DNA from: Grifola frondosa
Taxonomy: Eukaryota > Basidiomycota > Agaricomycetes > Polyporales > Grifolaceae
Reading direction: 5' to 3'
DNA length: 64,000 bases
NCBI GenBank assembly: GCA_001683735.1
Contig: LUGG01000001.1
Coordinates: forward strand, 2,480,001-2,544,000
The position numbers were made by a program, and so were the translations under genes. Below, piece after piece: positions 8,263-9,585 of this stretch. Each line of letters begins with the position of its first letter. The stretch's first letter is position 1. The notes below the pieces were generated by a model that worked only from the letters and a program-made list of their open reading frames with translations, had not been told where the DNA came from and did no database searches.

Positions 8263-9585
8263 ATGTTCACTGGTAACGGAATCAAAATTTTCACTGGTGA
8301 GTGTTCAAGCCGATTCGTGTGGTCGTCCCTCATCCTCGAGTTCGACGCAGGCACGAGCCACCCTGAGCTCGCCGAGATCATCACAAGACGGTGCACATTC
8401 ATCGTGCTTCGCCCGCAGAAGTGGACAGAGAGACTAACGTCCATATTCTGTGCAGGCTCGGCGTCACAATTGGCAAGGCCGAAGTCACCAAGAGCGGCAT
8501 CGGCGAGACAAGTGTGCGCATTGCCGAGTCGGTACGCGAGGACGATGTCTACATTATCAACACCGGCTGCGGCCAGATCAACACCGCCCTCATGGAGCTC
8601 TGTATCATGATCCATGCCTGCAAAATCGCGAGCGCGAAGCGCATCACGGCCGTCATCCCTCTGTTCCCTTATGCCCGGCAAGACAAGAAGGATAAGAGTC
8701 GGGCCCCCATCACGGCGAAACTCGTCGCGAACATGATCCAAAAGTCGGGCTGTGATCACGTCATTGTGAGTGTGGCTGTTTCCTTCCAAGCTCACCTCAA
8801 GTCCGATGTCGTCGTGTGTGTTCCGATGTTATATAGACCATGGACCTGCATGCCTCGCAGATTCAGGGATTCTTTGATGTTCCTGTGGATAAGTACGTGT
8901 TTCTTAGTAGTTCCTGCGCAGCATCACTGACATTCTTCTCCGGCGTCCAGCGTAAGTGACGCCTCTACCGCCTGTCCTATTAAACTTCACACTTGCCCGA
9001 TATAAGCTCTATGCGGAACCCTCTGCCATCCAGTATATCCGCAGCAACTTCAACCTCAAGGAAATCGTCATCGTTTCTCCCGATGCAGGCGGTGCAAAAC
9101 GGTGCGTCTTTACAGCCCACTGAAAGCACTTGGCCGATTGAAGCATCTCGTGACCCAGAGCGACTTCGATGGCCGACCGGCTGGGCGTCGATTTCGCGCT
9201 GTTCCACAAGGAGCGCAAAAAGGCAAACGAAGTTTCCCGGATGATTCTTGTTGGCCACGTAAAAGGGAAGACGGCTGTCCTGGTCGACGACATGGCGGAC
9301 ACGTGCGGCACGCTGTGTCTCGCTGCTCGCCATCTATCGGAAGCAGGAGCCGAGAAGGTGTATGCGTTGGTCACGCACGGAATCCTGAGCGGGAACGCGC
9401 TGAAGGCAGTCGAGGAGAGCGCGCTGGAGAAGCTGATTGTGACCAACACGCTGCCTCAGCAAGAGAACTTGGCGGGGTGCAAGAAGCTTGAGGTAATTGA
9501 TATCGGGAATGTGCTCGCCGAGGTGATCAGAAGAAGTCACTATGGGGAGAGTGTGTCGAAGCTGTTTGACGAGGTGCCGTATTAG
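8263..9585 (+). CDS. PRS1: Ribose-phosphate pyrophosphokinase (PRPP synthetase)
   Basis: It makes 5-phosphoribosyl-1-diphosphate from ribose 5-phosphate and ATP, the precursor of purine, pyrimidine, histidine, tryptophan and NAD synthesis. Exons: 8263-8296, 8351-8390, 8456-8765, 8837-8892, 8951-8951, 9007-9101, 9159-9585, totalling 963 nt (320 aa), the family's normal length. The PRPP-binding loop VDDMADTCGT is at residues 221-230; ITKSGIGETSVRI-like and FPYARQDKKDKSRAPITAKL regions are typical. The conserved DNLYAEP is produced only if a single C at 8951, flanked by CAG and GTAAGT, is used as a one-nucleotide exon, or if the assembly dropped one C at 9007. Which PRS paralogue this is cannot be decided, so the symbol is generic. 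No transit peptide; cytosolic. Confidence 0.95.
8951..8951 (+). other. One-nucleotide microexon in the PRPP synthetase gene
   Basis: The upstream exon ends GAT-AA at 8892 and the downstream exon begins CTC-TAT-GCG at 9007; the conserved Asp-Asn-Leu-Tyr-Ala needs one C between them. That C occurs at 8951 in the context CGTCCAG-C-GTAAGTG, with a 58-nt intron before it (8893-8950, CTGAC branch site) and a 55-nt intron after it (8952-9006). Confidence 0.65.

Follow-up and report, generated by a model that had tools for sequence, protein, structure and literature searches.

Nuclear exons of one nucleotide are known from APC11 (PMC4674806, PMC8831610) and VPS55 (PMC8831610) of land plants and from CYP621A of Fusarium (PMC12940212); one-base exons have also been reported from mitochondria, and codon-sized exons are cited for Tuber. 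Here we describe a candidate of this kind in the window, i.e. the whole 64,000-nt stretch of Grifola frondosa DNA that was analysed: a C at position 8951, within a gene predicted to encode PRPP synthetase. Like the exon of APC11 in Arabidopsis and other land plants, it is a single base with AG on one side and GT on the other that is essential for the frame, was missed by annotation and appears to be conserved in a large group (PMC4674806, PMC8831610). The APC11 case differs in that it is a plant gene, that its base is an A in a 422-nt intronic stretch, and that the exon was demonstrated with cDNA and GFP constructs (PMC4674806). The 1-nt microexon of VPS55 is likewise widely conserved in land plants and is followed directly by a GTRAGT donor, which here reads GTAAGT; it differs in that two spliced forms are described for some plants (PMC8831610).

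The fungal case resembles 8951 in its short introns, in the position of the base in a codon of a conserved motif and in the restoration of the frame, and in F. graminearum the stretch that is split has 139 nt (PMC12940212). However, CYP621A belongs to an ascomycete, only Fusarium and its teleomorph names being represented, and encodes a P450 of unknown function; its base is a G at the centre of a Gly codon and is confirmed by SRA reads (PMC12940212), whereas the base described here is a C in a PRPP synthetase gene of Basidiomycota, apparently from several orders. Its authors present the CYP621A exon as the second one known and as the first from a fungal gene (PMC12940212). APC11 had been named as the known example in a preliminary description of this DNA, and VPS55 and CYP621A must be placed beside it. 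Tiny exons also occur in an Agaricomycete, in the P450 genes of Phanerochaete chrysosporium, although the shortest given in the reports is 6 bp (PMC1184071, PMC12940212). Two neighbouring introns are excised in turn in the stwintrons of Ascomycota as well; there, however, the donor, branch point or acceptor of one intron is interrupted by the other intron, and the two are not separated by an exon base (PMC5639578). No earlier report of a one-nucleotide exon in Basidiomycota was found among the open-licence papers listed, and by the literature searched the 8951 exon would be the first in this phylum.

A predicted one-nucleotide exon in the PRPP synthetase gene

PRPP synthetase (ribose-phosphate pyrophosphokinase) is an enzyme that begins nucleotide synthesis. 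The window gene (Table 1) is predicted to encode it on the basis of the family profile and of homology to solved enzymes: the product matched Pfam PF14572 above the family cut-off in a profile search, and it aligned with human PRPS1/2 over residues 6-319 with an E-value of about 1e-132. Spliced translation reproduced the coding sequence given in the preliminary description, 963 nt including the stop codon, for a protein of 320 aa, and it was otherwise unbroken. Because 320 codons are free of stops and other frame breaks, a reading as a pseudogene was set aside. Human PRPS1/2 read VDN gap-free, and the genome's second PRS gene, on C4 (L005, C4:1786500-1791500, at about 1530-2915), carries a contiguous VDNLYSEP with no intron there. 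By eye, introns near the start (after an FTG/LTG codon) and after GGAKR appear to be common to the C4 gene and the window gene.

Table 1. Coordinates of the PRPP synthetase (PRS) gene and of the predicted features around position 8951
Feature	Position	Strand	Sequence or basis
PRS gene, start to stop	8263..9585	+	spliced translation 963 nt, 320 aa; PF14572; human PRPS1/2
PRS exons	8263-8296, 8351-8390, 8456-8765, 8837-8892, 8951, 9007-9101, 9159-9585	+	spliced translation
PRS introns	8297-8350, 8391-8455, 8766-8836, 8893-8950, 8952-9006, 9102-9158	+	54, 65, 71, 58, 55, 57 nt
Exon 4	8837..8892	+	ends GAT AA (phase 2); sequence and translation
Intron 4, 58 nt	8893..8950	+	GTACGT...CTGAC...GTCCAG
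Putative single-nucleotide exon C	8951..8951	+	third base, Asn codon of VDNLYAEP
Intron 5, 55 nt	8952..9006	+	GTAAGT...ATATAAG; AAG acceptor
Exon 6	9007..9101	+	starts CTC TAT (phase 0)

Exon 4 ends in GTG GAT AA at 8892, with a GTACGT donor from 8893; GTCCAG runs to 8950, the C stands at 8951, GTAAGT starts at 8952, and ATATAAG reaches 9006, after which the frame continues as CTC TAT GCG GAA CCC. At the sequence level, the C at 8951 sits between a 3′ splice site and a 5′ splice site (AG-C-GT), and in this one assembly it adjoins neither neighbouring exon. The translations and the alignment with human PRPS1/2 indicate that it is needed both for the frame and for the conserved Asn; sequence and spliced translation agree with the earlier proposal that it supplies the third base of the Asn codon. 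Among the junctions translated, the two-intron parse was the sole one with canonical borders that gave VDNLYAEP, and no single canonical intron restored both VDN and LYAEP. Removal of all 114 nt from donor 8893 to acceptor 9006, with the C skipped, resulted in a frameshift and early stops, which bears out the earlier statement that a single 114-nt intron cannot give DNLYAEP. Retention of intron 4 likewise shifted the frame, and retention of intron 5 led to a TAA after 18 codons, counting from Asn.

The A of the CTGAC branch site that had been noted in intron 4 was located at 8930, 20 nt upstream of the acceptor. No [CT]T[AG]A[CT] branch site was found within the 55 nt of intron 5, and its AAG acceptor and missing CTRAY make this intron weak. 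The base before a donor is usually G, and before the second donor it is C. In Grifola, splicing would take place on both sides of 8951, and the exon is probably constitutive.

Intron sizes and splice motifs in the genome

The lengths of introns in this genome were taken from a signal-only histogram, with local single-base shuffles (200-base blocks, five rounds) as controls; it replaced a coding-potential intron scan, which yielded just 19 introns. In the 264 kb sampled, donor-branch-acceptor pairs peaked at 50-59 nt (94 vs 25.8 in shuffles), and intron-like pairs of 110-119 nt showed no excess (29 vs 33.6 in shuffles). Lengths of 58 and 55 nt fit the intron sizes of this genome, as the preliminary description had held. 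For pairs of 48-66 nt, the excess over shuffles at the acceptor -3 base was about 39 for C, 26 for T, 5 for A and 4 for G. AAG acceptors seem rare but used in this genome, since the excess of A is only about 5.

The motif YAG-Y-GTRNGT occurred 15 times in the 264 kb on both strands, the 8951 site included. By our own arithmetic, it is expected about 0.001 times (roughly 1 in 1000) over the roughly 35 positions of the 114-nt stretch at which both flanking introns would keep 40 nt or more. CAG-C-GTAAGT occurred twice in the same 264 kb, once at 8951. The other occurrence lies in L024, at 9174 (+).

Gene models and transcript-like proteins of relatives

Three protein searches, each giving the best 120 of about 8000 matches, yielded 173 distinct listed proteins, of which 99 came from GenBank (ncbi), 72 from jgi and/or lgn only, and two were mixed clusters (P0043, P0051). 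We call the 72 'transcript-like': their sources are jgi/lgn, and their longest contigs have 963-1843 nt (6274 nt in one). Given that the gene in genomic DNA covers 1323 nt and includes six introns, they are probably spliced transcripts; a length of 320 aa is shared by 66 of them, and six range from 307 to 322 aa. Among the listed matches, GenBank-derived Agaricomycete models read VDN in 4 of 99 cases and something else in the other 95, whereas the transcript-like proteins read VDN in 71 of 72 and VDS in one (P0063); Fisher's test for this difference gave p 5e-42, with relatedness ignored. Both mixed clusters read VDN. The 95 deviant models comprise VDK (31), a missing VDN (27), VDKW (13), VDKY (7), VDKC (3) and 14 inserts, the last made up of N-V-S or N-V-G (5), ends in S (4) and others (5). 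P0140 was not parseable at the junction; of the 98 listed models compared, 95 have exactly 317 residues outside it (the exceptions are P0045, P0052 and P0121), which means that the disorder is for the most part restricted to the Asn codon. The four models with VDN, from two Taiwanofungus, Somion and Marasmius oreades, may have either the one-base exon or no intron at this point.

The deviant models were read by inferring codons from the proteins. A missing VDN would be the outcome expected of a donor GTN-GAY, and VDKW, VDKY and VDKC that of the GT at +5 of a GTRNGT donor, which would place the donor at the same base as that of intron 4 in 23 of the 99 listed models. In P0074, P0113, P0132, P0142 and P0143, the N followed by V-S or V-G corresponds to GTN-AGY or GTN-GGN, that is, to an intron-5 donor straight after the Asn codon. 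Conversely, the S before LYAEP in P0086, P0107, P0118 and P0150 fits an intron-4 acceptor AG plus one pyrimidine that was read, with intron 5 then spliced. In these nine listed models, one half of the two-intron structure seems to be translated. In the P0143 model (Moniliophthora roreri), the N is followed by a 75-nt insert, V-G...F-Q, which runs in frame into LYAEP with no extra base, as would be expected of an intron 5 (GTNGGN...CAG) kept whole. The problem is less evident in the 31 VDK models than in the other deviants, because only a non-canonical junction explains VDK; they may come from alignments that placed the extra base on the G of the intron.

Outside the junction, seven of the 98 listed models agree in 317/317 residues with a protein that carries VDN; six of these partners are transcript-like and are inferred to come from the same species as the model. 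Pleurotus ostreatus P0085 and P0150 and P. eryngii P0127 match P0079 in this way and give three different junction readings. Moniliophthora roreri P0143 matches P0051, a mixed cluster named M. roreri MCA 2997, and Suillus P0122, Leucocoprinus P0118 and Postia P0020 match P0129, P0059 and P0013, respectively. The Fomes fomentarius model P0014 (VDKW) differs from the transcript-like P0004 (VDN) in 1 of 317 residues.

The public Grifola frondosa model P0001 ('Ribose-phosphate pyrophosphokinase 2') has 341 aa, 21 residues beyond the expected 320, and contains residues encoded by the intron stretches of the window: KYVFL, then TPLPPVLLNFTLARYK, before LYAEP. It is the sole protein named Grifola among the 173 listed, and it seems to be an unsuccessful prediction of the gene described here. 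Because it derives from the same assembly and carries these intron residues, it is not independent evidence. In six of the 14 listed insert models, the residue preceding LYAEP is compatible with the end of intron 5: it is K (AAG) in Grifola, Athelia and two Marasmius, and Q (CAG) in Abortiporus and M. roreri. In the remaining eight it is S, D or L. The four K ends among six give 0.002 in a binomial test with 5/44, for species that are not independent, with TAG ends invisible as a residue and with a test chosen post hoc. As a lead only, an AAG-ended intron 5 is perhaps common to Grifola, Marasmius and Athelia.

The deviant models among the listed matches belong to eight orders: Polyporales, Agaricales, Boletales, Russulales, Atheliales, Jaapiales, and the Phallomycetidae members Geastrales and Hysterangiales. 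The lineage was looked up for at least one species per order, nine lineages in all. Jaapia and Sphaerobolus models read VDK, and in Hysterangium and Piloderma VDN is missing, which shows trouble at the junction, not the base itself. Among the named matches listed (the best 120 of about 8000 per search), no Tremellomycetes, Auriculariales or Cantharellales were recognised. A degenerate DNA pattern for FFDVPVD followed by AAGTRNGT had no match in viral_contigs or genome_contigs, two collections that are not fungal. The structure in relatives is read from the manner in which their models fail, and this pattern of failure points to a single-nucleotide exon conserved among Agaricomycetes.

Alternative explanations for the junction

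By far the best explanation of the junction, to which we assign a probability of roughly 94%, is that 8951 is a genuine and conserved one-nucleotide exon. An assembly error, with a C lost at 9007 (or a base lost ahead of 8893) and the excision of a single 114-nt intron, would yield the same protein, and the preliminary description, which had raised a C lost at 9007 as its caveat, also claimed losses of homopolymer bases elsewhere. We consider this very unlikely, as 95 of the 99 listed models, from many species and assemblies, lack VDN at the same codon, so that a similar loss would be needed in dozens of assemblies, and M. roreri P0143 passes from its insert to LYAEP in frame. Moreover, introns near 114 nt show no excess in this genome, and the internal CAG-C-GTAAGT would be a coincidence of about 1 in 1000 even for the looser motif. 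An in-frame intron of 110 nt from 8897 (GTGTTT) to 9006, which would give VDKYLYAEP and 321 aa, has parallels in the equivalent residues of the 23 listed VDKW, VDKY and VDKC models, but its donor is weak beside the GTACGT four bases upstream and its product is one residue too long. Each of the 72 listed transcript-like proteins carries just one residue at this point (Asn or Ser), and the near-identity of P0014 to a VDN protein also speaks against this intron, which leaves it even less probable than a lost base.

A still smaller chance is left for one non-canonical intron from 8893 to 9005, which would give VDKLYAEP: its 320 aa fit and VDK occurs in 31 of the 99 listed models, but it requires a GT-AA junction, and the VDK models P0085 (Pleurotus) and P0020 (Postia) are fully identical elsewhere to transcript-like VDN proteins. 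Nearly negligible, finally, is a stwintron or a zero-length recursive splice site in which the 114 nt are removed entire and no base is kept. Abutting intron pairs and stepwise excision do look alike, and the preliminary description had pointed to a resemblance to recursive splicing; however, the loss of all 114 nt makes VDNLYAEP impossible. A recursive splice site is a zero-length exon, with AG abutting GT. At 8893-9006, AG is followed by C and then GT, so that an exon base lies between the two introns, unlike in a stwintron, and, as one base would remain in the mRNA, the case falls outside recursive splicing as strictly defined.

Discussion

For the one-nucleotide exon at 8951, we propose that introns 4 and 5, both ordinary and short, would be excised successively around the C. 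The first-acceptor AG (8949-8950) falls within the -3 to +6 window of the second donor, where U1 pairs; this pairing is the basis of the steric argument. Because the AG lies within the U1-paired stretch, the two sites would not be occupied at once and the introns would leave in turn. Either order could give a workable intermediate, GATAAC/GTAAGT when intron 4 leaves first and GTCCAG/C CTC when intron 5 does (slashes mark the splice sites). Removal of intron 4 first is favoured because it has a CTGAC branch site and a CAG acceptor, whereas intron 5 ends in AAG and lacks CTRAY; the GTAAGT donor would then be paired with the weak AAG acceptor. We infer both the sequential order and the steric constraint, and the end product would be an unbroken Asp-Asn-Leu-Tyr-Ala-Glu-Pro in PRPP synthetase.

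We offer as a speculation, which we regard as doubtful, that the exon is ancestral to Agaricomycetidae, Polyporales, Russulales and Phallomycetidae and was retained in a housekeeping gene, that the order of removal is obligatory, with a strong donor and a weak (often AAG) acceptor set against skipping, and that splicing sets the amount of PRPP synthetase mRNA that survives.

Single-nucleotide exons probe the lower size limit of exon definition by the spliceosome. This candidate lies in a core metabolic gene and appears to be widespread in a class that includes genetically tractable species, so that the order of splicing and exon definition can be put to the test. A repeated annotation error also comes to light, as 95 of the 99 listed GenBank-derived models are without the expected Asn in a conserved motif.
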